From an uncultured Planctomycetota bacterium (lineage in GTDB: Bacteria; Planctomycetota; Brocadiia; CAIUPP01), in assembly GCA_903901045.1 (NCBI GenBank), contig CAIUPP010000031.1:1-39025 (forward strand): a stretch of DNA of 39,025 bases. The letters are read 5' to 3'. Made by a program: the position numbers and the translations under genes. Of the stretch, positions 9,310-37,208 are shown piece after piece; the first letter of the stretch is position 1, and each line of letters starts with the position of its first letter. The notes beneath the pieces are model-generated. The model had not been told where the DNA came from and did no database searches. It was given only the letters and a program-made list of their open reading frames with translations.

Positions 9310-12300
9310 CTATCGAGTTCCGGCCGCTTTCCGCACTATGCGATACTTGAAGGCGGTTCCGTCTACGGTAAAGGCTACTTTGCCTTTGGCCGGAACGGTG
9401 GACGCTACAGCGGCCGCCGCTGTGCCGTCTTCGGCCACCGGAAGCACGGCAACCGTTTCCGCGCCTGCAAGGGCGGGCGCGAGAATCTTCAGATCGAGCG
9501 TCACATTGTCCTGTTTTCTGAAAGGCGCGGGAATCAGCCACAACGACTCCCCGTCCGGCTTGACGACATAGCACTGCGCCGCCACAATGGGGCCAAAGTC
9601 CTTCTCCTGCCCGCCGCCATCACAGTACACGTACTGAGCGCCGCGAACGAAGTCCACCCGCCGTCCGCCCGAAAGCGCCGAATATTCCAGGATGACGCCC
9701 GGCAACTCGCAAAGATATCCATTCGGCGGGAGAATGTATTCCACGCCGCCGCAAGAAACGGTCCAGTTCTCCTTCTCATTGCGGTTGACGTAGACCTGCA
9801 GGCCGTTCTCATGCTTGCGGTAGACCTGGTTTCGCTTGTACGCGTCCGTCTTAATCGCCTCTTCGGTGCTCACCAGCCTGCCACCGTCGTTGTAGCGGAT
9901 TTCCGTCACCGGCACTGCGGCGTACTGCTGCTGGAGTTGCTGAATGAGGAAAGTGGACTTGAGCAGTTCGGCGGTCCGCTGATCGTGCGGGGGCAGCCAG
10001 CTTCGGCCGTATGCCATGCCGGTGCTGCCGTAGGCGATTTCGGAGGCCACCCACCATTGCAGGTCGCCGCCGGCATAATAACGCAGATGGAACCCGAAGT
10101 CGTTGGTCAGCGGGTTGATCTTCAGAAGGCGGAAGTCGACGAGGAGGGGCTGCTCGATGTTCGCCAGCATGGCGTAGTCGCCGTCGCAGAGGCCGGCAAA
10201 GAGCCATTGCGTCAGCCCTTCGCTGAACACCGGGCCGCCGAAGTGTTTCCGCTGCTGGTCGAGAAGTTTCCCGTAAACGCGAAAGACCTGGGAGAACTTC
10301 GCCGCATCGGGAGTCCGGGCGTCATAGTCCGTGCATTCCCAGGGGGGCCTGGCCGTATACTGGTCAGCGTAGCTCGCGCTGACGTTGTACTCCTTCTTGA
10401 GCCGCGTATCGAAGTACTCCTCGCATTCAAGCGCCCTGGCTGGTTTGATGAGGAGCGCGGGCCCGGAGCCGAATTTCCACTGGCCGTCAGGGTACAGGGC
10501 GATTTTGTTCTCATCCCAGTAACGATAATTCAAGGGGCTGGTGATTGTGTAATTGGTGTAGGGGATCGCAGAGTACCCCAGGTTCCCCTCCATTTTGCGC
10601 ACGAACTCCTTGACGGCCGCGTTTCCGCCAAGCAGCGGATCCTCGTCCACGTAAGAGGACTCCGGGAAACCGTCATCCGTATCCGATTGATGGACTCCGG
10701 GCTGGAAGACGGCGATGCGGAAATGCACAGCGAGGTCATCCACTCCGTATTGCTTCATCTTTTCCCAGAAGGAATACAGTTGCTCGTAATACGGAGGAGC
10801 CTTGCCCGCGACGATGTCCGCGTACGCCTTCGCGTCCAAGTCCCAGGATTGCATGGCCCAGACGCGCTTCTTCGTCACATTGAGATAGGGAGAAGGCGGG
10901 TTGGGAATGTTGGGCAGCGCCTCGGCGAACTTGCTGGAAGCGGTGAGGAAAAACCGCTCGCCGACGGCGTTCCTCTTGCCGTCCGTCCTGGCGTAGTACG
11001 CGCTGCCGCCGTTGATCGTCGCGGATTCGTTCGAGAGGAGTTTCTTCTCGCCGAATAACTCCGAGGCTTCGCTGTTATACCAGTCGGCAAAAGCGGAAAG
11101 GAAGACGCCGTTCGTGTAGAGGATGGCGGGGTCTTCGCTCTTGTGCATGCCACCCCCCATGGTCAGATATGGGACTTCGAGGAGTTTCGGCGCGGGCGTC
11201 CCCATGGCTGAGCCGAACCGCACTTCATTGACCGCGCCGGTGTCCGCGTTGAGGTTGACGATCAGGCTTTTCTGCTTGAGTTGGAGCCCCAGGCGCGCCT
11301 TGAAGGTGGTATCGGCAACTTGAAAGCTCCAAACCGCCTCAACCACGTCCCCCTTGACGGTGAGGCTGTCCAGCGTTCTCTTCACGCCTGAGTCGTCGGG
11401 AGAGTACTGTCTTCCCCCCACGTCGAGGACCAGCCCGCCTCCAACCAGCGGCCGGAAGTTGAAGGACTTGTTGAACTTCGTTGAGATATCCGAGAGCGTT
11501 CCCTTATCGGGCCGGTACTGATATTCAATGCTTTCGTCATTTCCGTCGTACAGGAAAGTAATCGTGTCGCCTTCGCGCCGGATGGAGTTCTTGAATTGCA
11601 CCCCCTTGGCCAGCGAGGGCAGGATGGTATCCGGCGTCGTGGGGAAGTTCACTTCCTTCCAGGAGGGGACGGTGCAGGGGATCGGGTCTCTATTGATCTT
11701 GTAGAAGCTCAACGAATCGATATAGGCTGTCTGGCTGCTCTCCCCCACCAGACCATAGAAGGTGAGTGAAAGGAACTTGGCAGGCGGCTTGACTTCCGCG
11801 GGCAAGGCGCAATGGGCGATGGACCACCCGCCCCAGAACACCTGATGGTAATCATTGTATGGACCGGAGCGGTTGTCGAGAATGACCGAGCGCGCCTTTC
11901 CCTGGGCGTCCTCGAACTGCGCGGAGACAGTGAAGCCGCCGGGGCGGTAGTAATACTTTCCATACACCCAGAGGGCGACGGCGTCGAAAGCGCTGTTGAT
12001 CGCAATGGGTTGGGGGGGACGGATCACGAAGGATCTTTTCGCCTGCTCCTGCCCCCTGCTGCCCTCGAAGGTGACCTTGGCTACGTAATTCCCCCAGAGC
12101 GCTTTTTCGTGGCTCCGAAAGAGTTCGGCCTTGCTTATGCCCTTGTAGGTCGTGACGGTCCAGCCGGTCAAGTCCTCGAAATCCACGAGGGGGAGGTGTT
12201 GTTCGGTCGTCCCTGCAATGAATCGGCTGACCGGCTGAATGAAGCCGGCGGGGTCGGCGTTGGCGGCGGCAGTGATTATCTCCTGCCCGAGATTCTGGTC

Positions 12301-13581
12301 CGCCTTGTCGACAAGGACGGCATTCAAGATCCTGACGTCGTCAATCGCGCCCTGAAAGAACAGCCCGTTGCGGTCGGCCGCCTTGCCGACCGTCAGCGGT
12401 TCCTTCAATGGAAGCAGTCGGCCCTTGGTTATCACCGGGTCCCCCACAGGCCGGCCGTCGACGTAGAGCCGCAGGACGTTGTCCCCCCACGAAAAGGCGA
12501 CATGCTGCCATTCTCCCTGGCGCAGCACGTTGAACGCGGTCGCCTCGAACGGGCCCTTATCGGTGACCACGGTGGCGGCCAGACCGGCCTGGTAGTAAGT
12601 CGTGAGCGCGTAGCCGGCGTGGTTGCCGCTCCCCTTGCTGAGGATGTACCCCTGCTCGTCAATATTCGCCGGTGTGACACGCTCGGGGTTGATCCACGCG
12701 CCTACCGTCAGCGCTTCCGCGGGGTTCTGCGTGTCCGAGTGCGGTACGGATACATACGCGTGATGGCCGTCGAACCTGAGAGCGTGGTTCTCCTCGCGCG
12801 CAAGACGGTAAACCCCCGGAACCTGGATTGAAGTACTCTTATAGTCGATGGGTGAACGCCCTTCCTTAAGGCTCTGATACTCCTCGCGAACCTGGTCAGC
12901 GCTCAAGACGCCGTTCAGAATTCGCACCAGCCCCACCTCTCCGGCGAAATGCTCCGTTCCCCATCCGCCGCTCGAACCGATCAGGACCGGCTCCTGGGAG
13001 GTGGCCAGCGGCGCCGGCAGCGGACGGTCCTCAACATGTTTGCCATTGCGGTAGATCCAGACGACCTTGCCGTCGCACGTGAGAAGGTAGTGCTGCCAGG
13101 CATCCTTTTCCACCATCTCCGCAATGAGCAGTCCCCAGTCCTTCTCATTGTTCTGGCGCAAGTAGAGGCTGGCCTTGCCCTCCCCGGCGAAGTTCGGAAA
13201 GCCGAAGGCGTATTTCTTCAGGACCAGATAACCGCCGTCCGCCTTCGCCGGCTTGCACCAAGCCTCAATCGTGAACTCCTTGCGATCAGGGGTGGGGTCC
13301 GGAAGGCTCACCACCTTCTCCGCATCAGCGGGAAACGTAATCACGGAGGAACTGCCGCCGACCCACTGCGCGCCGTGAATCTCCGCCTGTTTGCCGGACA
13401 CAGCGTCCTTTGTGCTGTCGCCATGGCCCTCGTCAAACGGAAGCGATAGCACCAGGCCCGCCCGATTCTGCTCATACCATGACGCCCACTCGCTGGCATG
13501 CGCGGAGCGCGAGCCTGTGAGCCCCAGCGCCGCACACGAACATAAACAGGCCATCCAAGTCCGCACGCTGTGAATCCGCAT
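9310..13581 (-). CDS. Secreted giant protein: two LamG domains plus glycosidase-like barrel (1423 aa)
   Basis: The start is the ATG at 13581 (MRIHSVRTWMACLCSCAALG), with GGAAGGGAAG upstream; a signal peptide ends near AHA (residue 29). LamG/concanavalin-type domains cover about 42-240 (FTIEAWCKPAK, HFAGEVGLVRILNGVLS) and 265-425 (LTVGAWINPE, GAIDDVRILNAVL). A jelly-roll-like section (about 465-630) and a beta-sandwich (about 650-890) follow. Residues about 905-1250 look like a TIM barrel, with candidate acids in SYADQYTARPPW (Asp1073) and PVFSEGLTQW (Glu1121). The C-terminus is beta-rich. It probably binds and hydrolyses an extracellular glycan; I cannot assign a GH family. It lies 115 bases downstream of a pseudopilin gene, separated by a hairpin. 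Confidence 0.8.
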   Translation of the reverse strand: MRIHSVRTWMACLCSCAALGLTGSRSAHASEWASWYEQNRAGLVLSLPFDEGHGDSTKDAVSGKQAEIHGAQWVGGSSSVITFPADAEKVVSLPDPTPDRKEFTIEAWCKPAKADGGYLVLKKYAFGFPNFAGEGKASLYLRQNNEKDWGLLIAEMVEKDAWQHYLLTCDGKVVWIYRNGKHVEDRPLPAPLATSQEPVLIGSSGGWGTEHFAGEVGLVRILNGVLSADQVREEYQSLKEGRSPIDYKSTSIQVPGVYRLAREENHALRFDGHHAYVSVPHSDTQNPAEALTVGAWINPERVTPANIDEQGYILSKGSGNHAGYALTTYYQAGLAATVVTDKGPFEATAFNVLRQGEWQHVAFSWGDNVLRLYVDGRPVGDPVITKGRLLPLKEPLTVGKAADRNGLFFQGAIDDVRILNAVLVDKADQNLGQEIITAAANADPAGFIQPVSRFIAGTTEQHLPLVDFEDLTGWTVTTYKGISKAELFRSHEKALWGNYVAKVTFEGSRGQEQAKRSFVIRPPQPIAINSAFDAVALWVYGKYYYRPGGFTVSAQFEDAQGKARSVILDNRSGPYNDYHQVFWGGWSIAHCALPAEVKPPAKFLSLTFYGLVGESSQTAYIDSLSFYKINRDPIPCTVPSWKEVNFPTTPDTILPSLAKGVQFKNSIRREGDTITFLYDGNDESIEYQYRPDKGTLSDISTKFNKSFNFRPLVGGGLVLDVGGRQYSPDDSGVKRTLDSLTVKGDVVEAVWSFQVADTTFKARLGLQLKQKSLIVNLNADTGAVNEVRFGSAMGTPAPKLLEVPYLTMGGGMHKSEDPAILYTNGVFLSAFADWYNSEASELFGEKKLLSNESATINGGSAYYARTDGKRNAVGERFFLTASSKFAEALPNIPNPPSPYLNVTKKRVWAMQSWDLDAKAYADIVAGKAPPYYEQLYSFWEKMKQYGVDDLAVHFRIAVFQPGVHQSDTDDGFPESSYVDEDPLLGGNAAVKEFVRKMEGNLGYSAIPYTNYTITSPLNYRYWDENKIALYPDGQWKFGSGPALLIKPARALECEEYFDTRLKKEYNVSASYADQYTARPPWECTDYDARTPDAAKFSQVFRVYGKLLDQQRKHFGGPVFSEGLTQWLFAGLCDGDYAMLANIEQPLLVDFRLLKINPLTNDFGFHLRYYAGGDLQWWVASEIAYGSTGMAYGRSWLPPHDQRTAELLKSTFLIQQLQQQYAAVPVTEIRYNDGGRLVSTEEAIKTDAYKRNQVYRKHENGLQVYVNRNEKENWTVSCGGVEYILPPNGYLCELPGVILEYSALSGGRRVDFVRGAQYVYCDGGGQEKDFGPIVAAQCYVVKPDGESLWLIPAPFRKQDNVTLDLKILAPALAGAETVAVLPVAEDGTAAAAVASTVPAKGKVAFTVDGTAFKYRIVRKAAGTR

Positions 13582-13628
13582 CGCTCTTCCCTTCCACAAA
13601 CCTTGTTGCGGCGCAGTGATTCTAGACA

Positions 13629-13669
13629 GCGAGGAGCCCGCAAGGAGTTCTTCCCTGCGGGCTCCTCGC
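13629..13669 (-). terminator. Strong hairpin between pseudopilin and LamG genes
   Basis: A perfect 14-bp stem: GCGAGGAGCCCGCA (13629-13642) and TGCGGGCTCCTCGC (13656-13669), with a 13-nt loop. It starts 27 bases after the pseudopilin stop and lies 47 bases upstream of the LamG gene start. It lacks a U-run, so it may be an attenuator or 3'-end stabiliser rather than a full terminator. Confidence 0.6.
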
Positions 13670-13696
13670 ACATCATACCGGCCACGTCAAGAGGAC

Positions 13697-15016
13697 TCAG
13701 TAGCTGGCAACGCCCACATCGATTCCGGCGCTTACGTCAAGGAGGTGCCACACATCGGTCTGGCAAACGAAATCACTTGTGTACCTGTTGGCGTCGGGGG
13801 ACATCCACCGGGTAAGGCAGTTGCGCGACAGGCTCCAGGCGTCCTCGACATTGGCATCCGTCAGTGTGCCGGTGCTGCAGAAGGTCCCGGAAAAATGCCC
13901 GGAAGCGCTGCTGCTGCTCAGGTTCTGGTCCTGCCACCACATGATTCGTTGCTGCGGGTCGCCGTACCAGGAAGCATGCCAGTCGCCATACAGAATATTG
14001 TACCCGTCGCGATGGGCATATCGCCCCATCCCAGCCAATAACGTGGGGGTGGAGGGGTTCAGAGTCGTATTGACGATGGCTTTTGAAAACGAATCCGTAA
14101 CCAGCGCGCGCCCGCCCAATTGCTTCGGCGTCTTGAACACCGGACAAGAGATAGCGGCTGTTTGCAGCGGCTTCGCGTCCCTCAGCCAGACGCTAGTATA
14201 CGCGTTGCTGGCGTTGAGAATTCCCATAACCGGCACGTTGCGATAGTTGTAGTCGCACTGGACCACGCGGCCGTAGAAAGCCCAATCCGACCAGTGAGGG
14301 AACTTCGTCCATGCGCCCCGCATGATGGACTTGGGGTCCGTACCCCCGAGCTTCTTCAAGTCTCCCGCGGATTTCGCGGCGCCGGTATCGGGAGTGGAGC
14401 CGTCCGCGCGAATAAGGATGGCCGGATCGGCAGGCATCGTGCCGCCTGCGCTCGGACAGTAGAAGGCCCCCGCGTCCCCAACGTAGTTGCCGGAGATGAG
14501 GTACCCCAGCCCTTCAGGCGCCACATTCAAGTAGCCCAGCGGCAGCGCGTCCGGCCTGCGTTGGTAGGTCAGGCTCGCCACGTTCGCATTGTCCGGGTCG
14601 TCACCGGTGCCGCAAAATAGCGTTCGGAAGCAGCCCACCGGCCCCTCGAAGATATCCCAAGCTCTCTGATTGATCCGCCCCGGCGACGACTGCAACGGAT
14701 CGGTCACCCAGCCATTTGCAGCTGTGGTGTATGAGTACCAGGACCAGTCAGCCCCTCCCTGCGCCAGGGTCTGCGGTTCCGATTGCCGCGCGCCATAGGC
14801 CGCCCAGCTCGGGAAGTAACCGGCGTAGTCGCCAGAATAACTCTCCAGACCTTTGCTAAACTGGTTCAGATTGCTCAAACAGGAGGCGCGGCGCGCTTTC
14901 TCCCTGGCGGCCGCCAGCGCGGGCAACAGCATCCCGGCCAGTATGGCGATAATTGCGATCACCACAAGCAGTTCGATCAGCGTGAACGCCGACAAGTACG
15001 CACGCACATTCCGCAT
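13697..15016 (-). CDS. Prepilin-like (pseudopilin) protein with HRDG(Y)N C-terminal domain
   Basis: 439 aa. The N-terminus [20 protein letters not shown] is a class III (type IV pilin-like) signal with Glu at +5; the residue before Phe11 is Ala rather than the usual Gly. A hydrophobic helix (to about residue 30) is followed by [18 protein letters not shown]. The large C-terminal domain has [32 protein letters not shown] and YGDPQQRI, and ends [17 protein letters not shown]. Similar proteins are massively expanded in Lentisphaerae and Planctomycetes (the latter as DUF1559/H-X9-DG). They are thought to be assembled by type II secretion or pilus machinery and to act outside the cell. GGAAGGAGAG precedes the ATG. 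It has a strong promoter at 15130-15157 and is divergent from a regulator gene. Confidence 0.9.
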
Positions 15017-15129: not shown

Positions 15130-15157
15130 ATTATAGCAGATGCTTTGACCTTGTCAA
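15130..15157 (-). promoter_or_regulatory. Promoter of the pseudopilin gene, with an overlapping palindrome
   Basis: On the minus strand a perfect TTGACA (15157-15152), a 16-base spacer and a perfect TATAAT (15135-15130). The -35 box is part of the palindrome TTGACCTTGTCAA (15145-15157), a candidate operator for the divergently encoded regulator. The leader to the ATG at 15016 is about 110 bases. Confidence 0.75.
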
Positions 15158-15263: not shown

Positions 15264-16364
15264 ATGTCAGACATAGAAGCCGCAACAAAACGAAGTCCCG
15301 TCACCGACCATGTGGTCGCTGAACTCAAGAAGCGCATCGCGTCGGGAGTTTACAAACCACATTCTTATCTGCCCTCAGAGCGGATATTGAGCCAGGAGCT
15401 TCAGACGAGCCGACGCTCCGTGTCGCTGGGGCTGACAAGGCTGCAGGCAGAAGGAATTGTTGTCCAGACTCCCGGACGCGGCACGCGCCTTTTGCCGCCG
15501 GAAGACCGCCACCAGCAGGTGGTGATTGGCGTGGCCTACCTTGCCGCTTTCTCCATTCTTCCACTCCAACTGACGCACATTCTCCACGGCATTGAAGGGG
15601 TCTTCCGCAGTCGCGGCTATCCCTACAAGTTAATGCCGCTGGACCACCCCAAGCGCGAAGGGGTTGTGCAGGAGATCATGCATCAATGCAACGCGCTGCT
15701 TTGCCTGCACACGTTCGGGTATGTCGAAGAGATGTGCGAGTTGGAACGCAAGCACTTTCCCATAGTCGTTGCCGGAATCGAGGTCATGGGAGAGTTCTCG
15801 GGGACCTGGGTGGACCACCGAAAGACAACCTTGGCGGCAGTAAAGGTGCTCACGGGAATGGGGCATCGCAGAATTGCGCTCATCGGTTGTCCTCCCACGC
15901 AGCATTTTTATGGGGATGCGCACGAGGGCTACCGCGCCGGTCTGGCAGAGGCTGGAATTCTCGTGGACGAATCCCTGATCGTGGGCGTGCGCGATTGCGA
16001 TACGCTCGCGGCATACCTTGCCGCGCGGTCGCTGCTGGCCCTGCCCGACCGGCCGACCGCCATCATCACGGGACGGGACTTGGAGGCCAACGGCGTATGT
16101 CGGGCGGTGAACGAAGCCGGCCTGACCGTGGGCAGAGACGTGTCCGTGTTCGGATTTGACGACAACAGTTGGCCGGGCAGCCAATCCCTCTTGACGACGT
16201 TCCGTGAGCCGTGCGAGGAATTGGGCATGGCGGCTGCCGAGATGCTGGTCGAAAGAGTGCTCTATGGATGGCGCGCGCCGGAGCACCGCGAACTGGAGGC
16301 ACCCATGATATTCCGCCAGAGCGTCGGTCCGGTGTTTGCGGGCGTTGCCGCCGCTCACGCGTGA
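15264..16364 (+). CDS. GntR-type DNA-binding / LacI-type sensor transcriptional regulator
   Basis: 366 aa. Residues about 12-75 form a GntR winged helix (VVAELKKRIASGVYKPHSYL, LPSERILSQELQTSRRSV, LQAEGIVVQTPGRGT). From about residue 88 to the end is a periplasmic-binding-protein-like sensor of the LacI/GalR type (HILHGIEGVFRSRGYPY, TGMGHRRIALIGCPP, DVSVFGFDDNSW, EELGMAAAEMLVERVLYG). This hybrid, known from the AraR/GntR class, usually represses sugar genes and lets go when a sugar binds. GGTGAG lies six bases before the ATG. Its promoter is back-to-back with that of the pseudopilin gene, and the DUF4434-like gene follows 46 bases downstream, so a role in glycan-responsive control of this locus is likely. 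Confidence 0.9.
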   Translation: MSDIEAATKRSPVTDHVVAELKKRIASGVYKPHSYLPSERILSQELQTSRRSVSLGLTRLQAEGIVVQTPGRGTRLLPPEDRHQQVVIGVAYLAAFSILPLQLTHILHGIEGVFRSRGYPYKLMPLDHPKREGVVQEIMHQCNALLCLHTFGYVEEMCELERKHFPIVVAGIEVMGEFSGTWVDHRKTTLAAVKVLTGMGHRRIALIGCPPTQHFYGDAHEGYRAGLAEAGILVDESLIVGVRDCDTLAAYLAARSLLALPDRPTAIITGRDLEANGVCRAVNEAGLTVGRDVSVFGFDDNSWPGSQSLLTTFREPCEELGMAAAEMLVERVLYGWRAPEHRELEAPMIFRQSVGPVFAGVAAAHA

Positions 16365-16410: not shown

Positions 16411-17391
16411 ATGTCGCTGGAAGAGAAGACGAACGTTGCGTTCAAAGGAGTCACCGGAACATTCCTGGACGGCGTGGCCGGGGACATCCCGGCGCATAAT
16501 TGGGGCCGCCGCGAGTGGGCCGCTCAATTCGACGTGATGAAGGAAATGGGGATGGACTCGGTGATCATCATCCGCGTCGGCTGGCGCCACATGGCGATGT
16601 ACCGCTCCAGGGTAATGAAGGCCACCCTCTACGATCCCGACGATCTGATCGCCCTGTTTCTGGACGAGGCGAAGCGCACCGGGCTGCGGCTCTACATGGG
16701 CCTCTGCGATACCTCCTCGACGGACTGGGCGGCCGAGGCCGCGCTCAATCTCGAGCTGATGGATGAGTTGATCGAGCGGTACGGGACGCACGCCGCATTC
16801 TACGGCTGGTATCTCAGCCACGAACCGACCCTGAACACGGCGCCATGGAAGGTATGGAACCCGCTGGCCCGAAGGATGCGCCAATTGACCCCGAGCAAGC
16901 CTGTGATCCTTTCCCCCCGGTATGAAGGCTTCAAGTACGAGCCGGAGAAGGCGAAACAGCCCGCGCCCTATGCGGAGCTCTTCGACCGGGCGCTCTCGCA
17001 GGTGACCGAGAAGATTGACGCCGCGGCGTTCATGGACGGCCACGTGGACTTCTGCGATTTGCCCGCCTATGTAGCAGCAATGAAGCCGGTGCTGGACAAG
17101 CATGGCATTGAGTTCTGGTCGAACTTGGAGACATTCGACCGGGATATGCCCATTCGCTTCCCGCCCATTGACTGGATGAAGATGCGCTTCAAGCTGGAGG
17201 CGGTTCAGCCGTACGTGCAGAAGATCATTACGTTTGAAGCGCCGCACTTCCTCAGCCCGTATTCACCGTGGGAATCCGGGCGCATGCTGTTTGAACGTTA
17301 TATGGACTACCGCAAGACGGCCACGAGCGGAACAACCGTCCCCAACCTCTACGCTACCAATAGGCTACCGCCACCTTACGCGACTGTTTAA
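16411..17391 (+). CDS. DUF4434-like TIM-barrel protein (putative glycoside hydrolase relative)
   Basis: 326 aa, starting at ATG 16411 with AGGAG (16398-16402) eight bases upstream. The N-terminus KGVTGTFLDGVAGDIPAHNW followed by EWAAQFDVMKEMGMDSVIII fits DUF4434 barrels, which resemble glycosidases. Later blocks are TGLRLYMGL, FYGWYLSHEP (a Glu in the position expected for a barrel acid) and DAAAFMDGHVD. There is no signal peptide, so it is probably cytoplasmic. The last 20 or so residues (TSGTTVPNLYATNRLPPPYA) look unlike the rest and may mark decay or a frameshift at the 3' end. It follows the regulator by 46 bases and is probably co-transcribed. The 271 bases after it (17392-17662) show no recognisable gene. 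Confidence 0.75.
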   Translation: MSLEEKTNVAFKGVTGTFLDGVAGDIPAHNWGRREWAAQFDVMKEMGMDSVIIIRVGWRHMAMYRSRVMKATLYDPDDLIALFLDEAKRTGLRLYMGLCDTSSTDWAAEAALNLELMDELIERYGTHAAFYGWYLSHEPTLNTAPWKVWNPLARRMRQLTPSKPVILSPRYEGFKYEPEKAKQPAPYAELFDRALSQVTEKIDAAAFMDGHVDFCDLPAYVAAMKPVLDKHGIEFWSNLETFDRDMPIRFPPIDWMKMRFKLEAVQPYVQKIITFEAPHFLSPYSPWESGRMLFERYMDYRKTATSGTTVPNLYATNRLPPPYATV

Positions 17392-18960: not shown

Positions 18961-21900
18961 TTACTTTGCCGCAGTCTCCGGCTCTATTTGAATCGTCATC
19001 GGACCGTTCACGTTGGCGGAAATGGCCAGTGTGCCATCTTTTCCCGCGGTCACGGTGCGCCGCGCGCCGTCCGCGACCGCGTACTGAACGCCCGCTTTGA
19101 TTGGGAAGTCGCCGGTCCGCACGACGAACTTGGCCTCGCCGCGACCGTTCAGAAGAAGCCGAATTCTCTGCGCGTCGTATTGCGCGACGAACGTGTTCAT
19201 TGGCGTGGCGGACTGAATGGCAACGGGTATCTTCTTCACAACCGCGGTCTCATCGGTTTTGAGCGCAACCTCCGTGCGCACGCCGGCCGCGTCCGCCGTC
19301 GTGATGAAACTGTGCGGCGCCATGAAGCCGCGCGCGTCGCAGAAGTGGACGTAGTGCAGATCCCGGTCGTTGCGCCATCCATAAACGCCGGAGGTGGCCG
19401 TCACCGTCCGCTCGCGACCTTCCACCCAGCCGGAGTGGATGTTCTCCACCGTAATCGGATACATGTAAGTGATGATGTTCTTGTCCTCGATCGGCCCGTA
19501 GTAATGGGCGTACAGACAGCCGGTCTTCAACTGGGTCACCACCATCTGGCTCACTTCCCGCTGCACCTTGGGGAAGGAGCAGCCGAGCGCCACCGGCGTG
19601 GACGTCAAGTGCACCTGTCCGGCAATCTGGCAGCTCTCGATGAGGTAGAACGCCACCGGCGCGTTCTTGAGGAACGTGAGCGTTCCGGGCCCGCGGTCGG
19701 AGATCACAGATCCCCCTTTCGCCGCAATGCGTTTGCAGTACTCGATGTAGGCGCCCTGGGCGAGGAGGTTGACGGAGGCCAGCTTCGCGGTGATCAACTT
19801 CGTCTGCGGGTCGATTTCCACGGTGTGGCCGTCCCAGCGGTCATAGGTGAACTTGCCCTGGTACTGGTCCATCAATCCGTCGCAGAAGACGCCCGTGGCC
19901 CCCATCTGGTCCATCATGACATCCACCGTCCGGAGCATTTCCTTCCCATAGCTGTTTTCGAGCGTGGGATAGAAAATGAACCACCGGTACCCTTCCTCCA
20001 GCCGTTCTTTGCTGAAGTAATTCTGCATGTAAGCGAAGTCGTTGGACCAGACGACCTGTCCGTCCGGAGCCGAAGCGAAAGCCTTTTTGTTGATCAACTT
20101 CGAATCGGCAAAACGCTCCGGCTTGTTGGTGGTGTAGAGGCTGTGGGCGATGTGGAACATCACCTTGACGCCCGGGTACTTCTCTTTGGTCAGCCGCATC
20201 GTCTCGGCGACCGCCGCCATCTCCTTCGGATAGTTGAACAGATCGAAACCGTCCACTTCGAGGCCGGCGTCATCCAGGATGTTGAACATGCAGGGGATGG
20301 TGGCGTACTTGAGGTTGAGGATCTCCGCCTGTTTCGCGGGGATGATCGCCCTGCGCTTGCTCAGTTGCGGCTGCTCGTTGAAACTGAAGCCGCCTTCCAT
20401 CGTATTGCCGACGACCCCCAATTCCCGGCGGAGCAGGTTCGCGAAGTCGAAATAATCTCCCGATTCCATCGGGTAGACGGCCCACTCCACAGTGCAGGAC
20501 TTGCCGCCCGCCAGGCCGAACATGTTGTTCGAGATTTCCATCCCTGCTTTGTCGCGCGCAACGAAGGACTGGGAAACCGACACGTCGTCCAGCAGAAGCA
20601 CTCCGAGCCCCAGGCCATCCTTCCCGACGAAGATCGTCGGGTTGTGGTTGGTATCCCGCTTCCCCCACTCCTTCTGGCCGGCCAGGAAGCAATTCGGGAA
20701 TTTCTCGCCCGGCGCGGGCAGCACGGTCTTCATGATGATGCCCACATCCTCGGAGGTGCGGTTGGTGAACGTGTCGCGCACGAGGATTCGCCCGGGCTGG
20801 AGTTGAACGGTGCGGTCGATGGAGTAGAATTTCCCCGCCCCCTTCACTTCGTAACGGTCGTCGGCGACCTTCTTCAGGTCGACCGTCCAGGACTCCTCCT
20901 TCTTCGCGCCCGGCGCGTCTGAAACGGAGAGCGGGTTCTCCCCGCCGCCGGGGTAGGAGTAGAGCGAGTCGACGGTGAATTTCTCGCCGTTGACCGCGAG
21001 GGTGAAGCCGCCGCGCGGGCTGACCTCCGCGCTGTACTTGGCCGACCCCAGCGCCGGCGGCAACGGGCCCACGCTCTTGGCCGCGGGCGCGGGAACGACC
21101 GGATCGGGGAGCGGAATCGGCAGCGGCGTCTTCTCCAGGGCGGATACGGCCCCGCCCGCCTTGAGAATCGCGTTCGCCTCATACTGCCCCGGGGGCAATT
21201 CGGAGATCTTGAAGATCAGTTCCACGCGCCCCGCCTTGATGTCCGGGGTGATGGGAAGCGTCCGGACCGGCGTCGCTTCCCCGGCTTTGCGCAGCTCCAC
21301 CGCCAGCGTGCACTCCTTCGGCAGCGGCAGCAGGCCGCGGTAATTGACGTCCAGGACGATCTTGTCCGACGCGGGATAGTAATAGGGCGTCACCAGAAAG
21401 CGGCCCGGCGTCGCGCCGTCCAGCACGACCAGCCGCTTGGACGCCGCGCCGGCGTTGAAATGCAGCGCAATCTCCGCTTCGCCCAGCGCGCGGCTGTACA
21501 CGCGCACGTCGCCGAGCATCCCCGAGAAATACAGCGCGCCCGGCGCTCCCGGATTCATGCAGCCCATCTGAAAAGCGCCGCCTTTGCCGGCCGCTTTGAC
21601 CTGCGATTCGCGCGAGGCCGTCAGCTTCCCGTTCACGTACAGCTTCAGCAACGCGCCGTCGAAGGTGGCGGCCACGTGCTGCCAGCAGCCGAGGTCCATC
21701 CGGCTGTGGCAGTTGTTCCCGCCGTTGGCAAGGTACCAGTAGAAGGAACCGGCGTACTGCGTGATCAGGAAAGAGGTGAAAGACTTGCCCACAATCCCGA
21801 TCTCCCCCTTGGGCGAGGCCTCGGGATAGATCCACGCTTCCAGGGTGACGGCCTCCGTGAGGTCGAGGCTGAGCCCCTTGCCGCAATCCACCGTGGAATC

Positions 21901-22119
21901 CGTGCCGTTGAACCGCAGCGGGGTTCCCTCCCCGTCCTTGACCCAGGCAGCGCCGTGGATCGCGCCATCGTTGCCGTTGCCGCTCCGGTCATGGAGCGCC
22001 GTTCCCTGCCCTTCCTGGAAGTCCCACTCCGCCGCAAGGCCCATCGCCTTGTCGTCGGCGCGGGCGGCCACGCACAGCGAGAACAGCACGCACAAGCCGA
22101 GAAGTCGCACGTTCATCAT
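18961..22119 (-). CDS. Secreted LamG plus glycosidase-like TIM-barrel protein (1052 aa)
   Basis: A signal peptide (MMNVRLLGLCVLFSLCVAARA) is cleaved near residue 21. A LamG domain (about 28-225; VTLEAWIYPEAS, FYWYLANGGNNCH, GMLGDVRVYSRAL) is closely related to the small LamG protein encoded at 24301. Two beta-sandwich sections follow (about 230-340 and 360-560). A likely catalytic barrel spans about 590-930 (VKVMFHIAHS, GATGVFCDGLMDQYQG with Asp747 and Asp751, GGSVISDRGPG). A small beta domain ends it. It probably acts on an extracellular glycan; GH family not assigned (DUF6259- or GH101-like barrels are possible comparisons). Its ATG overlaps the stop of the symporter gene in an ATGA, implying translational coupling. 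A terminator follows, so it is the last gene of the operon. Confidence 0.82.
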   Translation of the reverse strand: MMNVRLLGLCVLFSLCVAARADDKAMGLAAEWDFQEGQGTALHDRSGNGNDGAIHGAAWVKDGEGTPLRFNGTDSTVDCGKGLSLDLTEAVTLEAWIYPEASPKGEIGIVGKSFTSFLITQYAGSFYWYLANGGNNCHSRMDLGCWQHVAATFDGALLKLYVNGKLTASRESQVKAAGKGGAFQMGCMNPGAPGALYFSGMLGDVRVYSRALGEAEIALHFNAGAASKRLVVLDGATPGRFLVTPYYYPASDKIVLDVNYRGLLPLPKECTLAVELRKAGEATPVRTLPITPDIKAGRVELIFKISELPPGQYEANAILKAGGAVSALEKTPLPIPLPDPVVPAPAAKSVGPLPPALGSAKYSAEVSPRGGFTLAVNGEKFTVDSLYSYPGGGENPLSVSDAPGAKKEESWTVDLKKVADDRYEVKGAGKFYSIDRTVQLQPGRILVRDTFTNRTSEDVGIIMKTVLPAPGEKFPNCFLAGQKEWGKRDTNHNPTIFVGKDGLGLGVLLLDDVSVSQSFVARDKAGMEISNNMFGLAGGKSCTVEWAVYPMESGDYFDFANLLRRELGVVGNTMEGGFSFNEQPQLSKRRAIIPAKQAEILNLKYATIPCMFNILDDAGLEVDGFDLFNYPKEMAAVAETMRLTKEKYPGVKVMFHIAHSLYTTNKPERFADSKLINKKAFASAPDGQVVWSNDFAYMQNYFSKERLEEGYRWFIFYPTLENSYGKEMLRTVDVMMDQMGATGVFCDGLMDQYQGKFTYDRWDGHTVEIDPQTKLITAKLASVNLLAQGAYIEYCKRIAAKGGSVISDRGPGTLTFLKNAPVAFYLIESCQIAGQVHLTSTPVALGCSFPKVQREVSQMVVTQLKTGCLYAHYYGPIEDKNIITYMYPITVENIHSGWVEGRERTVTATSGVYGWRNDRDLHYVHFCDARGFMAPHSFITTADAAGVRTEVALKTDETAVVKKIPVAIQSATPMNTFVAQYDAQRIRLLLNGRGEAKFVVRTGDFPIKAGVQYAVADGARRTVTAGKDGTLAISANVNGPMTIQIEPETAAK

Positions 22120-24173
22120 TCCGTCCTTTCCTGAGGTCTGTTGAGAAGGGCGCCCTCCGAAAGCGCATCGGTCGGCGTCTCAATATGGCTTGGAGCAAAC
22201 GGGCTGTCCTCGTCGGCCACTCTGCCGTTGTCGGCAGGATTGCGGACGCTGGCGTCCAGCGACTTGAACAACGCGCGAATGTCCCGGATCCCGCCGATGG
22301 CCAGCCAGAGGGTCGCCGGCGCGCCCAGGCAGAAGAGGGCCACCAGATAGACGTGCCAGAACCCCGCCCACCACGCGTCGCTGAGTCCGAATTTGAATTG
22401 AATGGCGCTGACGATGACGAAGGTCGCCAGCCATCCGAAGTTCCAGACCACCAAAAAGGTCGCCAGCACGCGGTCCATCACGGTGAATTCGGGCGTAATG
22501 CCCAGGAGCGATCCCAGGACATTGCGCAGCGTGGTGGGCAGACGCGCGGGGGATTTCTCGTCCGCGTAGGGGCCGTGGTACAGCATTTTCTCCAGATTGA
22601 ACGCTTTTCGGCCGCGGCTGACGCAGAGCGAGACGACCACGTACACCACGATCGCCGAGGCCATGGCGATGCCCCAGAGGTACTGGCCGTTAATCGGGAA
22701 ATTATGTCCATAAAGCGCCTGCCAGACTTTGTCGGAGAAGATCCCCCAGAGGCCCAGCGCGGCGCCGAGGCTCACCGCCGCATAAGCGCCCGCCGTGGAG
22801 CCCCGCCGCCAGTACAGACCGCCGATGACCACCGCCCCGGACCCGCCCGCCCAGATCGTCCCGGTGATGGCGAAGAACATGAAAATCTTCTGCGTGGGGA
22901 CGTAGAACGCGCTGAAGAAGAAGGCGAAGGCCGCCACAAAGACGATGGACCAGCGCAACCAGCGAATATGCGCGTCGGGGGAGAGCGGCGGCTTTCCCCG
23001 CGCCTGGCGGAACGGCAGCAGCACATCCTGCACGAAGATCGTCCCCCAACTGTGCATGTACGTGTCATGGCAGGTGAAGGAGAAGAAGATCATGCACATC
23101 GCCAGCAGCCCCTTGATGCCCACCGGCAGAAAGAAGGCAAGCGCCACCGGGACAGTCATCTGCGTCCGCAGGGTCGCGTTGGAAATGGAATCCAGCGACT
23201 GCTGGATGGTGACGGCCTGCCCCGTGAACTCCGGCGCCTTCATGATGGTGTAGGCGGCCAGCGGCAGGAGAATGCTGAAGAGCATCTGGGGCATGTAGCG
23301 CCAGATGGAGATCACCCCGGCCATCCGCTGCTCGTGCGGATTGCGGCCCGAGCTCATGAACCCCGAGGTCCCTTGCCAGGACAACTGTCCGTAGAACGCC
23401 CAGAAGAGGCCGATCATGAAGAACCAGATGTTGAAGTCCGGCACTTGGGTGGTGTGGTAGGGGTTCAGCATGGAGGCGTTCGCCGGCGCCATGTTGAGCG
23501 CGGTGACGATCTGCGACCAGTTGAGTTTCACCACGATCGCCACGATGATGAGCAGGAAGGCGAAACCGGTGACGATTCCCTGCACGCACTCCGTGACCAT
23601 CACGGAAATCTGCCCCCCCATGTTCACGAACATCAGCGCCAGCCCCAGATCGGCCAGCATGATCACAATGAAGGTGCTGAACTCGAAGGGAATCCCCGGA
23701 ATGTGGAAGAACTCGGGCAGGCCGCAGAAGTACATGATGAAGCGGGAGGCCACGGCGGGAAAGATGCCGAAGTTGACCACGCCGCACGCCCAGATGATGA
23801 TGCCGGAGAAGATGCGGTAGCGCCGGCCGTAGCGCATCTCCAGGAACTGCGCCAGCGTCATGGCCCGGGTCTCGCGGAAGCGCCAATAGACCCAGCCGGT
23901 CAGGCAGATGATGCATCCCACCGGGGCGGAGAGCAGCGCCCACCAGATCGGCGGGAAGCCGGCCACGTAGTACATCTCGAACAGCGCCACGAAAGAGATC
24001 GTGCCGACCCCTCCCATGGAGCTGGCGATGGTCAGCAGGTATCTGCCTGCGCTGCGGTTGGCGGAGAGGAAGTCCGCCACCCCCTTCATATGCGAGCGCG
24101 CCCTGACGCTGACAAAGCGCAGCGCGACCACCGCAAAGAAGATAATTCCCCAGTCGAACCAGGTCAGGTTCAT
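22116..24173 (-). CDS. Sodium:solute symporter (SSS family)
   Basis: 685 aa with about 13-14 hydrophobic segments. Typical features are FLSANRSAGRYLLTIASSMGG near the N-terminus, which forms the broken first core helix and sodium site, EMRYGRRYRIFSGII, and QGTSGFMSSGRNPHEQRM in the middle. A hydrophilic tail of about 45 residues ends the protein inside the cell. SSS members carry sugars, sialic acids, amino acids or vitamins; the neighbours suggest a sugar or sugar acid released by the secreted enzymes. AAAGGG lies before the ATG. The stop overlaps the start of the secreted LamG gene (22116-22119), a tight link between transporter and enzyme. A 51-nt palindromic repeat precedes it. Confidence 0.93.
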   Translation of the reverse strand: MNLTWFDWGIIFFAVVALRFVSVRARSHMKGVADFLSANRSAGRYLLTIASSMGGVGTISFVALFEMYYVAGFPPIWWALLSAPVGCIICLTGWVYWRFRETRAMTLAQFLEMRYGRRYRIFSGIIIWACGVVNFGIFPAVASRFIMYFCGLPEFFHIPGIPFEFSTFIVIMLADLGLALMFVNMGGQISVMVTECVQGIVTGFAFLLIIVAIVVKLNWSQIVTALNMAPANASMLNPYHTTQVPDFNIWFFMIGLFWAFYGQLSWQGTSGFMSSGRNPHEQRMAGVISIWRYMPQMLFSILLPLAAYTIMKAPEFTGQAVTIQQSLDSISNATLRTQMTVPVALAFFLPVGIKGLLAMCMIFFSFTCHDTYMHSWGTIFVQDVLLPFRQARGKPPLSPDAHIRWLRWSIVFVAAFAFFFSAFYVPTQKIFMFFAITGTIWAGGSGAVVIGGLYWRRGSTAGAYAAVSLGAALGLWGIFSDKVWQALYGHNFPINGQYLWGIAMASAIVVYVVVSLCVSRGRKAFNLEKMLYHGPYADEKSPARLPTTLRNVLGSLLGITPEFTVMDRVLATFLVVWNFGWLATFVIVSAIQFKFGLSDAWWAGFWHVYLVALFCLGAPATLWLAIGGIRDIRALFKSLDASVRNPADNGRVADEDSPFAPSHIETPTDALSEGALLNRPQERTE

Positions 24174-24300: not shown

Positions 24301-25023
24301 TCAGCCCCCTTTGCCCTTCTCCGTTTCGACGGCGGGATAGCTGGAGACCGTCTTCTTGTAGCGCTCCGCGATCTCGGCATCGCTGAGGGCGCGGCTGTAC
24401 AAGCGCACCGCGCCGATCATTCCGTTAAAATAGGAGGTGTCCTGGCCGCCCGGGTTCAGGCAACCCATGTAGAAGTGCCCCTCCGCGCCGGTCATCTTGA
24501 CCGCCGACTTTCCCGAAGCGACGCGCGCGCCGTTGATGTACAGGCTCATCTGCTCCCCATCGTACACCCCCACGACGTGCTGCCAGGCGCCGATCTTCAT
24601 GGGAGCATGGCAGTTGTTTCCGCCGCTGCCGATGTACCAGTAGAACTGCCCCTGATACCCCGTGATCACGTAGTTGTTCACGTACTTGCCGGCGATGCTC
24701 GGCTCCCCTTTGGGAGCGGATGCGGGATTAACCCAGGCCTCCAGCGTGACGGCCGCCGTGGGGGTGAGCGTCTCGGAGGTGCCGCAGTCGACGTACGCCT
24801 CCTTGCCGTTGAACTGCAAGGCAAAGCGCTCCCCCACCTTGGCCCACGTTGCGCCGGAGATGTCGCCATTATTGCCGTTGGGGATGGCGTCTTGAAGCAC
24901 CCCGCCCTTGCCGTCCTGGAACTGCCAGTCAGCGACCAGCCCCTTCTCCGCCTCGGCGCGCGCGACGGTCGCAAGAGCGCACAAACAGATCGCCGCCGCC
25001 GTGATCCACAGTTTCATCATCAT
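24301..25023 (-). CDS. Small secreted LamG-domain protein (240 aa)
   Basis: A signal peptide (MMMKLWITAAAICLCALATV, cleaved near ARA) is followed by a single LamG domain (about 28-222) and a short charged tail. VTLEAWVNPASAPKGE, FYWYIGSGGNNCHAPM and YFNGMIGAVRLYSRALS are very close to the LamG domain of the 1052-aa protein encoded at 18961. There is no catalytic region, so it is likely a free glycan-binding module or a piece left by duplication. Three ATG codons in a row (25023, 25020, 25017) follow GGAGG; I chose the first. It follows the double-propeller gene by 67 bases. Confidence 0.85.
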   Translation of the reverse strand: MMMKLWITAAAICLCALATVARAEAEKGLVADWQFQDGKGGVLQDAIPNGNNGDISGATWAKVGERFALQFNGKEAYVDCGTSETLTPTAAVTLEAWVNPASAPKGEPSIAGKYVNNYVITGYQGQFYWYIGSGGNNCHAPMKIGAWQHVVGVYDGEQMSLYINGARVASGKSAVKMTGAEGHFYMGCLNPGGQDTSYFNGMIGAVRLYSRALSDAEIAERYKKTVSSYPAVETEKGKGG

Positions 25024-25090
25024 ACGTCCCTCCATTCGGAACTGGACATGAAAACGCACCAGGCAACGTTCGCGCACCAACTCACAGCCC

Positions 25091-27718
25091 TCAGCCGAAA
25101 GCCACCGAATACAAGCGGGGGAATCCCGCCTTGCCTTGAAAATAAATGCGCAGTTCGAAGGCGGCCCCTCCCCGCTCGGGCAAGCTTGCCTTATCGCGCC
25201 AGGTGACGCGCCGGGCGGTCGCATCCCCCGCAATCCGGCGGCACGCCTTCCGCTCGTATCCCGCCAGCGCGCGGCCGCTCACCGGGTCCGCCAATTCGGC
25301 CTGAAGGGAGCCTTCCTTCCCGCAGTCGCAATTGAGGAACAAGGAGGTGGCGGCGCCGGGGTCTATGGGGATCGTCTTCAGCCACCCCTGCGTTTCATTC
25401 GCGCCCGGCTGAAGGTGCGTGAACCCGTCCAAGCGGAGCGTGCCGAGGCCGGCCGATCGGTTGTAATTCACCCCCGTCTTGTTGCCCGGCCAATCATGCG
25501 TGCACAGGCCGCCGTAGTAAATGCGGATTTCATTCCCGTCCAGAATGGGGATGCCCGGGGCGATCAGGTCGGAGTCGAAGCTGCCTGCGGAGCCCAGGGG
25601 AATCAGCTTCTCGCCCGGGCAGACGAAGCTGAAATTCTCCCCGTCGCGACTGGCCGCCATCTCCACGTCCAGGCGCCCGCCGTCATATTGGTAGTGGTAG
25701 AACGCCAGGTAATGTTCCCCGTACGGCCAGACCGTGAGGTCGTGAATCTGGTGCAGCTTGCCCCCTCGCACCGGCGGAATGCAGCGCGCGAAAGCGTCCA
25801 GCACCGGGTTCTGCGGAGAGGCCGTCCAGTGGATGCAGTCCGCGCTGTAGATATAGCTGCCGCCGCGCCGCCCCAGGTTCAGCGAGGAGAAACCGTACGC
25901 CTTGTAACGCTTTCCGGGATCTTTCTCCCGGTCGTCGCGGAAGAAGGACTGAGGGATGATCTCAATAGGCTTTCCACCCGGACAGTCGATCGAGGCAGGC
26001 TCCCCCTTCCAGCGGAGTCCGTCCGGGGAGGTGTAGAGCTTGCCGCTGAGCGCCTCGCTCCACGGGTCCATTCGCCCCGCTTTGGCCTCGTCATGGTGCA
26101 GGATCGCCGCCGGGAAAGAGAGCAGCTTGTAGCGGCGCGCGGGGTCGGGGTCGGCGGGGTCGCAAAGGACGATCGCGCTGTTGCCGCCGGGGCCGCGGAT
26201 GATGTTGGTGTGGCGGTTGCCCCGGAACGCAACCTGGCCGAGCGGGACCCGCTGGAACGCGTAGCCGTCCGCGCTTTCCGCATAGCCGATGCGGCCCCAG
26301 CGCGGCCAGACGACCGTGGAAGTGAGACGAATCCCCGAGTACCACATCCGGTACCGCCCGCTCTCCTTGAGCACGCGCACGAATCCCCCCGCGCCATGAA
26401 CGTCAAAGTCCTCCGGGCCGCCGGCGCTGATGACCGGGTTGGCCGGCGACTTGCGCACGGGATTGAGCTTCAAGTCGAGATGCTGCATCTCGCGCACTTC
26501 CTGCAGGTCGAAGAAGAGCACCTTCCGCCCGGGAGCCGCCTGGAGAGAGAGGGCCGGAACTTGATGGAACTCCACCCGCGGCGCGGCCCCTTCGCTGGAG
26601 ATGGCCAAGCCGATGCCGGCGGCATTCGCCGGAGTCCGCTCCTCCACGGTCAGCCGGTCGATGGAAAGGTGGTTGTCCTCCGCACGCGGCGAGTTCCAGC
26701 GGATGCAATAACTGTTGCACAGCGGTCCCCACTGGCGACCCAGCCAACGCGTGTGGAAGATATGCTGCCGGCTCGCGTCGATGAAGAACAGCCAGGGAAC
26801 CCCGTACCGGTCCAGCGCAAACTGCTGGGAGTGGGAGGTGTCGTAGGCCGGCCGCATGTCGGAGGCGCAAACCCGACTGCCCTGAAACGCCGGGTTGACG
26901 CGGCTCCGCCCGTCGGCGCGCTCCACAAAGAAATGCCGCTGGACCGATCCGTAATCTTCGTACGCCAGCAACACCTTCCGGCCGGTCTTCAGAAGCGCCG
27001 CACGATGGGCCCAGCCCACCAAGCTGGTTGCCCGCAAAGGGATCTTCTTCGGCAGATCGGCCAGGCGGCCGGTGAGATAACGGCACTCCTGCCGGATATC
27101 GTGCCATGCCAGATGAAAACTCCTCTCCTCGTCGATCATCAGCGACGCCGGCGAATAGCCGTAGCCTTCGGCGACCTTGTACGCCGCCCATCTCCGTCCG
27201 TTGAAGCCGCCGATGAAGACCGTGGAGGCGTGGTCCGGCGTGCTGACGGTCCACGTGGCGAGGATTCTTCCATCCGGTCCCGTCGTCACGTCGCCGAGGC
27301 GGGAGTTCGCCGGCGCGATGACGAACCCGCCGGGCTTCAGAGTCGCCGGGCTCAGCCAGTGGACGTTCCTGCCGGGCCGCCGGGGTTTTCCCATCTCCAA
27401 ATCCGCAACGGAGCAGACCGTGCAGCCTTCCTCGGTGTTCCCGAGCAGAAGCAGGCGGTCGCCGGCGGCCATCGCCATCCCGGCGGCGAAAAAACCTCCC
27501 CGGCTGCGCGCGCCCAGCCGCGCCGGGTCCAGAGGAATCGGCGGGTGAAAATCCGCCGCCGAGGCCGGGTCGGCGGCCCTTGAGACCCACAGGCAGAGCC
27601 GGCCCGCATCCGGCGCGGAGGGATTCGGGGCCAGAAAATGGAACCGCCCCCGGCTGTCGCGGCAGAGGCGCTTGGAAATGGCCCGGTCAAACTCGGCGCG
27701 CAATGCTTTATTCCACAC
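25091..27718 (-). CDS. Double beta-propeller protein, glycosidase-like
   Basis: 875 aa with no signal peptide, so probably cytoplasmic. The first half (about 15-385) has repeated beta-blade patterns (TGPDGRILATW, DEERSFHLAWHD, DRYGVPWLFFID) like BNR or sialidase-type propellers. The second half (about 400-870) has blades seen in GH43/GH32-type five-bladed propellers (RYRMWYSGIR, IGYAESADG, KLYTSPDGLRW, RYKAYGFSS, YIYSADCIHW, IRIYYGG). Such folds hydrolyse or phosphorolyse glycosides, but I cannot place the acids with confidence. The start is GTG at 27718, one base after the stop of the upstream gene, with AGGAG near 27728, so it is translationally coupled. It may cleave imported oligosaccharides. 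Confidence 0.8.
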   Translation of the reverse strand: MWNKALRAEFDRAISKRLCRDSRGRFHFLAPNPSAPDAGRLCLWVSRAADPASAADFHPPIPLDPARLGARSRGGFFAAGMAMAAGDRLLLLGNTEEGCTVCSVADLEMGKPRRPGRNVHWLSPATLKPGGFVIAPANSRLGDVTTGPDGRILATWTVSTPDHASTVFIGGFNGRRWAAYKVAEGYGYSPASLMIDEERSFHLAWHDIRQECRYLTGRLADLPKKIPLRATSLVGWAHRAALLKTGRKVLLAYEDYGSVQRHFFVERADGRSRVNPAFQGSRVCASDMRPAYDTSHSQQFALDRYGVPWLFFIDASRQHIFHTRWLGRQWGPLCNSYCIRWNSPRAEDNHLSIDRLTVEERTPANAAGIGLAISSEGAAPRVEFHQVPALSLQAAPGRKVLFFDLQEVREMQHLDLKLNPVRKSPANPVISAGGPEDFDVHGAGGFVRVLKESGRYRMWYSGIRLTSTVVWPRWGRIGYAESADGYAFQRVPLGQVAFRGNRHTNIIRGPGGNSAIVLCDPADPDPARRYKLLSFPAAILHHDEAKAGRMDPWSEALSGKLYTSPDGLRWKGEPASIDCPGGKPIEIIPQSFFRDDREKDPGKRYKAYGFSSLNLGRRGGSYIYSADCIHWTASPQNPVLDAFARCIPPVRGGKLHQIHDLTVWPYGEHYLAFYHYQYDGGRLDVEMAASRDGENFSFVCPGEKLIPLGSAGSFDSDLIAPGIPILDGNEIRIYYGGLCTHDWPGNKTGVNYNRSAGLGTLRLDGFTHLQPGANETQGWLKTIPIDPGAATSLFLNCDCGKEGSLQAELADPVSGRALAGYERKACRRIAGDATARRVTWRDKASLPERGGAAFELRIYFQGKAGFPRLYSVAFG

Positions 27719-31562: not shown

Positions 31563-31588
31563 GAAAGACTCCTTAAACCATGCTCGTG

Positions 31589-32503
31589 TCAGCCAATCCA
31601 CTCCGGGTACTTCTCAAGGAGAACCTTGCGGCACTGCTGGTAGACCTCCTCGGAGAAACACTCGTACGGCGAGAGAAGGCGCATCGGCATGTCAATCCCC
31701 GCAAGCCGTGCCAGCATTTTATCATAGGCGCCGTCCACGGCATCGCGACCCCGCGTAGGCGCGAGGAAATCGTTGACGAAGGAGGCCATGCCGGACGCCA
31801 GTTTGAAGGCTTCCGCAGAGCGGCCCTCCCGTCCGGCGTTGAAGAGCTGCCACGTCCGCCGCGGCATCAATGCGCCGAAGGAGCTCAGGATCGAGCACTC
31901 GCCGAGCAGGCACCCATGCGGGTAAAGCGCTTCGCTGAAAAAATGCCGCAAATCCGGCGCGTTCGTCATCAGCTCCGAAATCCGCAGCACGCTGTCGCTG
32001 GTGTTCTTGGTGGCGACCAGGTTCGGGACGCGTTCGGAAATGCGCCGGTAGTCCGCGCCGTTGAGCAGTCGCTTGGCGCGCATCAGGTTGTAGTGGAGGA
32101 ACGTTGAATCCGGGAATGTCCCGCACACGTCCCGGAAGAAGGTCATGGCCTCGCCGTCATCCAACACCCCCCAGGAAGGGAGCGATATCTGAAACGAGCG
32201 AAAGCCCAGGCTGTGCGCCAGGCCGATGCGCTCCACGACGTTCGACGTGGAGAGGCCGATGGCCCCCACCTGCGGGAAGATTCCTTTTCCGCGAGTTTCC
32301 TCGCGGAAGACCGTCACCACGTGGCGGAAGCGTTCCGTGTCCACGGCGTAACCTTCTCCGCAGGTGCCGAAGACATAGAGATGGTTGAATCCTTTCGCCA
32401 GCAGGTCGCGAACGAGCTCGCGGAATGTCCCTTCGATCAACTGCTCCTTTTCGTCCCACGGGCAGACCGTGGGCATCAGGACCGTCTGCGGAAACCTGGG
32501 CAT
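31589..32503 (-). CDS. DapA/NanA-family aldolase or lyase
   Basis: 304 aa, a class I Schiff-base aldolase. The barrel carries the phosphate/carboxylate loop GTCGEG (46-51, the family's GTTGE), the catalytic Tyr138 (LHYNLMR) and the Schiff-base Lys166 (LVATKNTSDS). It cleaves or forms a 2-keto acid with pyruvate; DapA, NanA (N-acetylneuraminate lyase), KdgD and related sugar-acid aldolases share these residues. The context of mannosidase, symporter and propeller protein argues for a sugar acid rather than lysine synthesis. AAAGGAG lies before the ATG at 32503. It is the first of the cytoplasmic enzyme genes after the 51-nt repeat and a 1509-aa secreted protein. Specificity is undetermined. Confidence 0.9.
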   Translation of the reverse strand: MPRFPQTVLMPTVCPWDEKEQLIEGTFRELVRDLLAKGFNHLYVFGTCGEGYAVDTERFRHVVTVFREETRGKGIFPQVGAIGLSTSNVVERIGLAHSLGFRSFQISLPSWGVLDDGEAMTFFRDVCGTFPDSTFLHYNLMRAKRLLNGADYRRISERVPNLVATKNTSDSVLRISELMTNAPDLRHFFSEALYPHGCLLGECSILSSFGALMPRRTWQLFNAGREGRSAEAFKLASGMASFVNDFLAPTRGRDAVDGAYDKMLARLAGIDMPMRLLSPYECFSEEVYQQCRKVLLEKYPEWIG

Positions 32504-37176: not shown

Positions 37177-37208
37177 GGGCGTCCGCCCCCGGGTGGAAGC
37201 GGACGCCC
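37177..37208 (-). terminator. Hairpin between second pseudopilin and LamG genes
   Basis: A perfect 10-bp stem, GGGCGTCCGC (37177-37186) and GCGGACGCCC (37199-37208), with a 12-nt loop. It is about 55 bases downstream of the pseudopilin stop and 44 bases before the 1509-aa LamG gene. No clear U-run, so attenuator or RNA-stabilising hairpin is as likely as a terminator. Same relative position as the hairpin at 13629. Confidence 0.55.

Follow-up and report, generated by a model that had tools for sequence, protein, structure and literature searches.

In Bacteroidota, the SusC/SusD loci are sugar-regulated clusters coding for secreted enzymes that act on glycans, each locus having its signature gene. 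The loci described here invite a comparison in the way they would work, as sugar-regulated clusters of secreted enzymes with a signature gene, but in this case the signature gene is a pseudopilin, and no match to SusD_RagB (PF07980) or to the TonB plug (PF07715) was found in the 94.1%-complete genome; a Bacteroides control matched both. How polysaccharides cross the planctomycetal outer membrane is presented as an open question (PMC5394234). The crateriform structures of Planctopirus and Gemmata carry pili-like fibres that bind dextran, for which a role in periplasmic uptake has been proposed (PMC5394234). These are planctomycetal fibres binding a polysaccharide, as is considered here, but their subunits are unnamed in the passages concerned and the paper does not mention DUF1559. 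Such fibres make glycan capture plausible, without identifying the fibre protein.

The nearest precedent for associating pseudopilins with glycans is Verruconatronum alginivorum, an alginate degrader of the Verrucomicrobiota, in which a pseudopilin is over-expressed on alginate (PMC13274419). According to the relevant sections of the same paper, the alginate cluster encodes a PulG-like pseudopilin, for which that genome contains 67 homologues. This may be a gene other than the alginate-induced one, and the next gene encodes an SSF symporter. Pseudopilins are tied to polysaccharide degradation in both cases, the link being made by description and not by homology, but V. alginivorum belongs to another phylum, and these sections describe no rule combining a regulator, a pseudopilin and a stem-loop. 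We found no description of such a module in the literature.

The pseudopilins studied here belong to DUF1559 (PF07596), a family earlier taken for solute-binding proteins, after Pfam (PMC2754498). With 68 copies, it is the most numerous group of paralogues in Planctopirus limnophila (PMC10632474), and 74 paralogues are present in Rhodopirellula baltica (PMC2754498). Our proteins resemble these by scoring above the Pfam cut-off, by their prepilin N-terminus and by their tens of paralogues per genome, but they differ in their length (384-489 aa) and in a distinct C-terminal block. PilB of Streptococcus sanguinis, a modular type IV pilin (PMC8179133), likewise combines a type IV pilin with an added binding function; in that protein an entire adhesion domain has been added, whereas here the variation lies in the loops of one core.

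The window, i.e. the whole stretch of DNA analysed, is the complete contig C31 (39,025 nt) of an uncultured Planctomycetota bacterium whose draft genome comprises 4.77 Mb in 154 contigs. As an earlier note on this DNA had recorded, it holds two trios of pseudopilin, hairpin and LamG protein (Table 1). The two pseudopilins are indeed clear paralogues (39% identity over full length, E=6e-89) and both hairpins are real, with stretches folding at -43.6 kcal/mol (z -5.3) for stem-loop 1 and -44.5 kcal/mol (z -3.0) for stem-loop 2 (dinucleotide shuffles). Stem-loop 1 lies 27 nt past the pseudopilin stop codon and 47 nt ahead of the next ATG, and stem-loop 2 lies 43 nt ahead of the next ATG. An Rfam scan of the window detected no known RNA family at either hairpin.

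Table 1. Positions of the main features of the two pseudopilin modules in the window
Feature	Position	Strand	Description
LamG protein 1	9310..13581	(-)	1423 aa; ATG at 13581; predicted secreted (signal-peptide-like N-terminus)
LamG domains of LamG protein 1 (two)	12889..13314 and 12310..12771	(-)	
GC-rich stem-loop 1	13629..13669	(-)	18-bp stem, 5-nt loop; without U-tract
Pseudopilin 1	13697..15016	(-)	439 aa; prepilin N-terminus, DUF1559, conserved 14-residue block
Promoter, sigma70-like	15130..15157	(-)	TTGACA and TATAAT, 16 bp apart; precedes pseudopilin 1; deduced from the sequence
Divergent regulator of first module	15264..16364	(+)	GntR HTH and LacI-type sugar-binding domain (Peripla_BP_3)
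DUF4434 protein	16411..17388	(+)	Adjoins the regulator
LamG protein	18961..22119	(-)	1052 aa; homologues in other pseudopilin loci
Multipass membrane protein	22116..24173	(-)	685 aa; second locus
Small LamG protein	24301..25233	(-)	Second locus
GH38 alpha-mannosidase-type enzyme	28953..31601	(-)	Second locus
DHDPS/NanA-type aldolase	31589..32503	(-)	Second locus
LamG protein 2	32604..37133	(-)	1509 aa; ATG at 37133; one LamG domain (36459-36929)
GC-rich stem-loop 2	37177..37208	(-)	14-bp stem, 4-nt loop; follows pseudopilin 2
Pseudopilin 2	37263..38540	(-)	425 aa; heads a co-directional run of ~21 kb

The two LamG partners show no detectable relation outside LamG, in agreement with the earlier note. 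Its label of hydrolase is at most tentative: Pfam detects LamG and nothing catalytic in either protein. A sequence search of the PDB with both C-termini gave no credible match. In the first partner, the C-terminal ~980 aa have no recognised fold and match no Pfam family or solved structure; judged by its sequence, this part is possibly a new secreted domain family. Its structural model, built from a two-row alignment (mean pLDDT 33), was discarded as too poor. One homologue of this non-LamG part (9313-12249 (-)) occurs within the fetched loci (C17_17293, 28% identity). The second partner has a full-length homologue, C35_30357, which is 41% identical, also lies directly downstream of a pseudopilin and shows sub-threshold GHL6/Melibiase matches.

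In the second module, the contig ends above the pseudopilin, so that its regulator is out of view. The run that it heads also includes a Zn-alcohol dehydrogenase. Other parts of the genome encode close homologues of the 685-aa membrane protein, at 60-65% identity; the protein has no Pfam match at E 1e-3 and, judged by eye, is possibly a sodium/solute symporter. An 875-aa protein (25091-27718 (-)), without Pfam match, is 53% identical to a homologue encoded near another pseudopilin, on contig C77.

Using tblastn and a local profile, we found that the window pseudopilin has ~57 full-length paralogues in its own genome, and 44 in the fetched loci of G001, a sister genome of the same family that provides the sole independent test of gene context. 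From the 75 genomes of the class, these two are the only ones with the full-length form, the others matching its N-terminal part only, and a search of 294 genomes of the phylum gave one further genome with a full-length match at a strict threshold. As it was found in no more than the taxonomic family of the window and a single further genome of the phylum, the full-length form is not a phylum-wide solution. Three tandem pairs of pseudopilin genes (L011, L034 and L060, on contigs C29, C68 and C1) suggest local duplication.

All of the 50 aligned paralogues match the TIGR02532 prepilin N-terminus. Both window pseudopilins exceed the Pfam cut-offs for N_methyl (PF07963) and DUF1559, the latter with 28.3 and 29.4 bits for a gathering cut-off of 23.3 bits and with only the first ~40-50 profile positions aligned. 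The alignment shows a conserved helix, FCPSA, FKTQKxLGGRA, a further block of 19 residues and a C-terminal WHxFDVxxGxDV block, set apart by hypervariable loops. Trp and Tyr together make up 10.3% of the pseudopilin head, vs. 4.8% in other genes. The AlphaFold2 model (pTM 0.83) is pilin-like, with a helix at residues 2-63 and a beta-rich head whose loops are of low confidence. A Foldseek search of this model against the PDB gave no match below E 0.001; VIA-align listed type IV pilins with modest scores, the best being PilA4 of Thermus (Z 6.0; 123 residues superposed with an rmsd of 3.4).

We then compared the neighbours of these genes, using 1.02 Mb fetched around the pseudopilins (715 genes, predicted by a home-made caller) and an estimated 3325 genes for the whole genome; both window cases were kept in the locus counts. 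A regulator with a Peripla_BP_3 domain (PF13377), upstream or divergent, adjoins 31 of the 56 pseudopilins, vs. 0.7 expected, tandem pseudopilins being skipped in this count. These 31 cases (24 on the same strand, 7 divergent) involve 29 distinct regulators, from the 44 Peripla_BP_3 regulators above cut-off in the whole genome, and Pfam assigns them to GntR/LacI types. The count is a lower bound, as other types of regulator were also seen. In the sister genome, 18 out of 43 pseudopilins adjoin such a regulator. No operator palindrome was shared upstream of the pseudopilins, where palindromes were not enriched. Similarly, a consensus promoter was rejected as a feature of the family (14/53 vs. 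67/384, not enriched).

Downstream, the +1 gene is longer than other locus genes (median of 729 vs. 348 aa) and more often predicted to encode a secreted protein, by a simple home-made signal-peptide rule (31/46 vs. 170/536). Its product is often carbohydrate-active, and the families found at this position include LamG, CBM9, GH123, DUF4838, beta-helix, PcRGLX, rhamnosidase and NAGidase. The regulated and enzyme-rich setting of the pseudopilin loci is well supported, and we hold it to be very probable.

The stem-loop, unusually strong and GC-rich, is also a recurrent element. A strong stem (at least 10 bp) is present in 41 of the 51 co-directional gaps that follow a pseudopilin, vs. 19 out of 168 other co-directional gaps and 10 out of 61 strand-switch ends in the same genome, with a median best hairpin energy of -35.0 vs. 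-18.8 kcal/mol (mononucleotide shuffles). The tendency is weaker in the sister genome (5/18 vs. 3/38). The stem sequences differ among loci, and a U-tract is mostly missing, only 12 of the 41 strong stems having at least four T among the 8 nt that follow. At 13 loci, counted over both genomes, the stem-loop is separated by no more than 40 nt from the start codon after it, too short a distance for a full promoter; the gene after the stem-loop is thus probably reached by read-through. In addition, 80% of the pseudopilin genes have a strong ribosome site, vs. 47%.

Our preferred reading, to which we give a probability of about 0.5, is that this genome contains ~57 sugar-regulated glycan loci, each headed by a pseudopilin, and that the glycan is handled by a shared filament. 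Each locus would be switched on by its own sugar. The stem-loop would guard the upstream mRNA or partly stop transcription and, together with the strong ribosome site, would yield the pseudopilin in excess over the enzymes. A shared prepilin peptidase would cleave the pseudopilin, and a shared type II secretion or type IV machine would assemble it into a periplasmic or surface filament; the genome encodes two prepilin peptidases, common to all pseudopilins, and gives 16 matches to the T2SSE family, of which retraction-type ATPases are also members. The hypervariable, aromatic-rich loops on the conserved core would bind or handle the polysaccharide of the locus, and the secreted LamG, CBM and glycosidase proteins of that locus would degrade it. 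Given that neither SusD nor a TonB-receptor plug domain was detectable, the filament may fill the place of SusC/SusD in Bacteroidota. Against this reading, a regulator with PF13377 stands next door at only about half of the loci, and the aromatic-rich loops could instead serve protein contacts. The recurrence of this module at tens of loci connects a branch of DUF1559 with glycan use and makes the connection testable, as any given locus points to the sugar that should induce its pseudopilin. Should the pseudopilins indeed bind glycans, a pilus machine would do the job of SusC/SusD.

In a more specific and more tentative form of the glycan-filament reading, which we consider possible, each pseudopilin would serve a shared type IV filament as the subunit that captures a specific glycan, and ~57 interchangeable, sugar-induced pilins would replace receptors of the SusC/SusD type. 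If this were true, it could provide a function for part of the large planctomycetal DUF1559 family.

Specificity might concern the cargo and not the glycan, each locus providing the shared type II secretion machine with its own pseudopilin as an adaptor by which its large enzymes cross the outer membrane. The match of all 50 aligned members to the prepilin model, with GspG among the best named matches, is consistent with this, as are the large and predicted secreted +1 proteins. Moreover, the authors of the V. alginivorum study propose, in the part concerned, export of the alginate lyases by the T2SS (PMC13274419), and pseudopilin similarity correlates weakly but significantly with partner homology (permutation P 0.008 and 0.0006). 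Nevertheless, the window pseudopilins score far under the NCBIfam equivalog cut-off for GspG (35.8 and 37.5 vs. 88.85 bits), and LamG partners with 62-74% identity stand beside merely moderately related pseudopilins, unlike what a cargo-specific adaptor would give. The excess of pseudopilin expected from the ribosome site and the stem-loop would also surpass the need of an adaptor. We consider this export role doubtful.

The pseudopilins could also be abundant, general proteins that ride along in operons under sugar control, where they would belong to a growth-mode or surface-attachment programme and be specific for neither cargo nor glycan. In line with such a passive role, Planctomycetes have many DUF1559 paralogues with no assigned function, as in the two species cited above. 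The hypervariable loops on a conserved core and the usual presence of one copy per regulated locus, with its stem-loop, favour a locus-specific use instead, and make this explanation improbable.

The earlier note also saw in the repeated trio a cassette pairing a pseudopilin with its own LamG protein, and expected this pairing to be enriched across genomes. The repeated module exists and recurs beyond chance, but a LamG partner is not its rule. In the genome of the window, LamG is found at +1 in 11 of the 49 loci, vs. 0.49 expected genome-wide (P about 6e-12) and 2.4 within such loci (P about 4e-5); this becomes 9/47 without the two window cases, and LamG is at +2 in 8/46. The enrichment holds there but not in the sister genome, where only 1 locus out of 25 has LamG at +1. 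The regulator and the stem-loop after the pseudopilin are more constant neighbours than LamG. On a FastTree phylogeny of the pseudopilins, in which many branches are poorly supported, the state of having a LamG neighbour needs 10 changes for 11 cases, so that this adjacency was gained or lost many times. Pseudopilin 2 (C31_37266) and C35_34966 are reciprocally closest among the pseudopilins, and the LamG partners beside them, both of ~1500 aa, are the 41%-identical proteins mentioned above; from these similarities, the second pair of the window looks like a duplicated cassette. Strict co-evolution of the pseudopilin with its +1 partner was rejected, the correlation being weak, with exceptions in both directions.

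That the pseudopilin serves specifically to anchor or display the adjoining LamG protein, as the earlier note proposed, is very unlikely: LamG is over-represented at +1 in this genome and the pairs C31_37266/C31_32607 and C35_34966/C35_30357 look co-duplicated, but the near absence of the pairing from the sister genome, the repeated changes on the tree, the similar LamG partners beside different pseudopilins and the majority of loci without LamG at +1 all stand against it.

Elsewhere in the window, a tRNA gene (7268-7356 (+)) is the sole Rfam match, and an ATPase of the AAA_14/DUF4143 type (7845-9146 (+)) is encoded in the part that separates the housekeeping genes from the first module.
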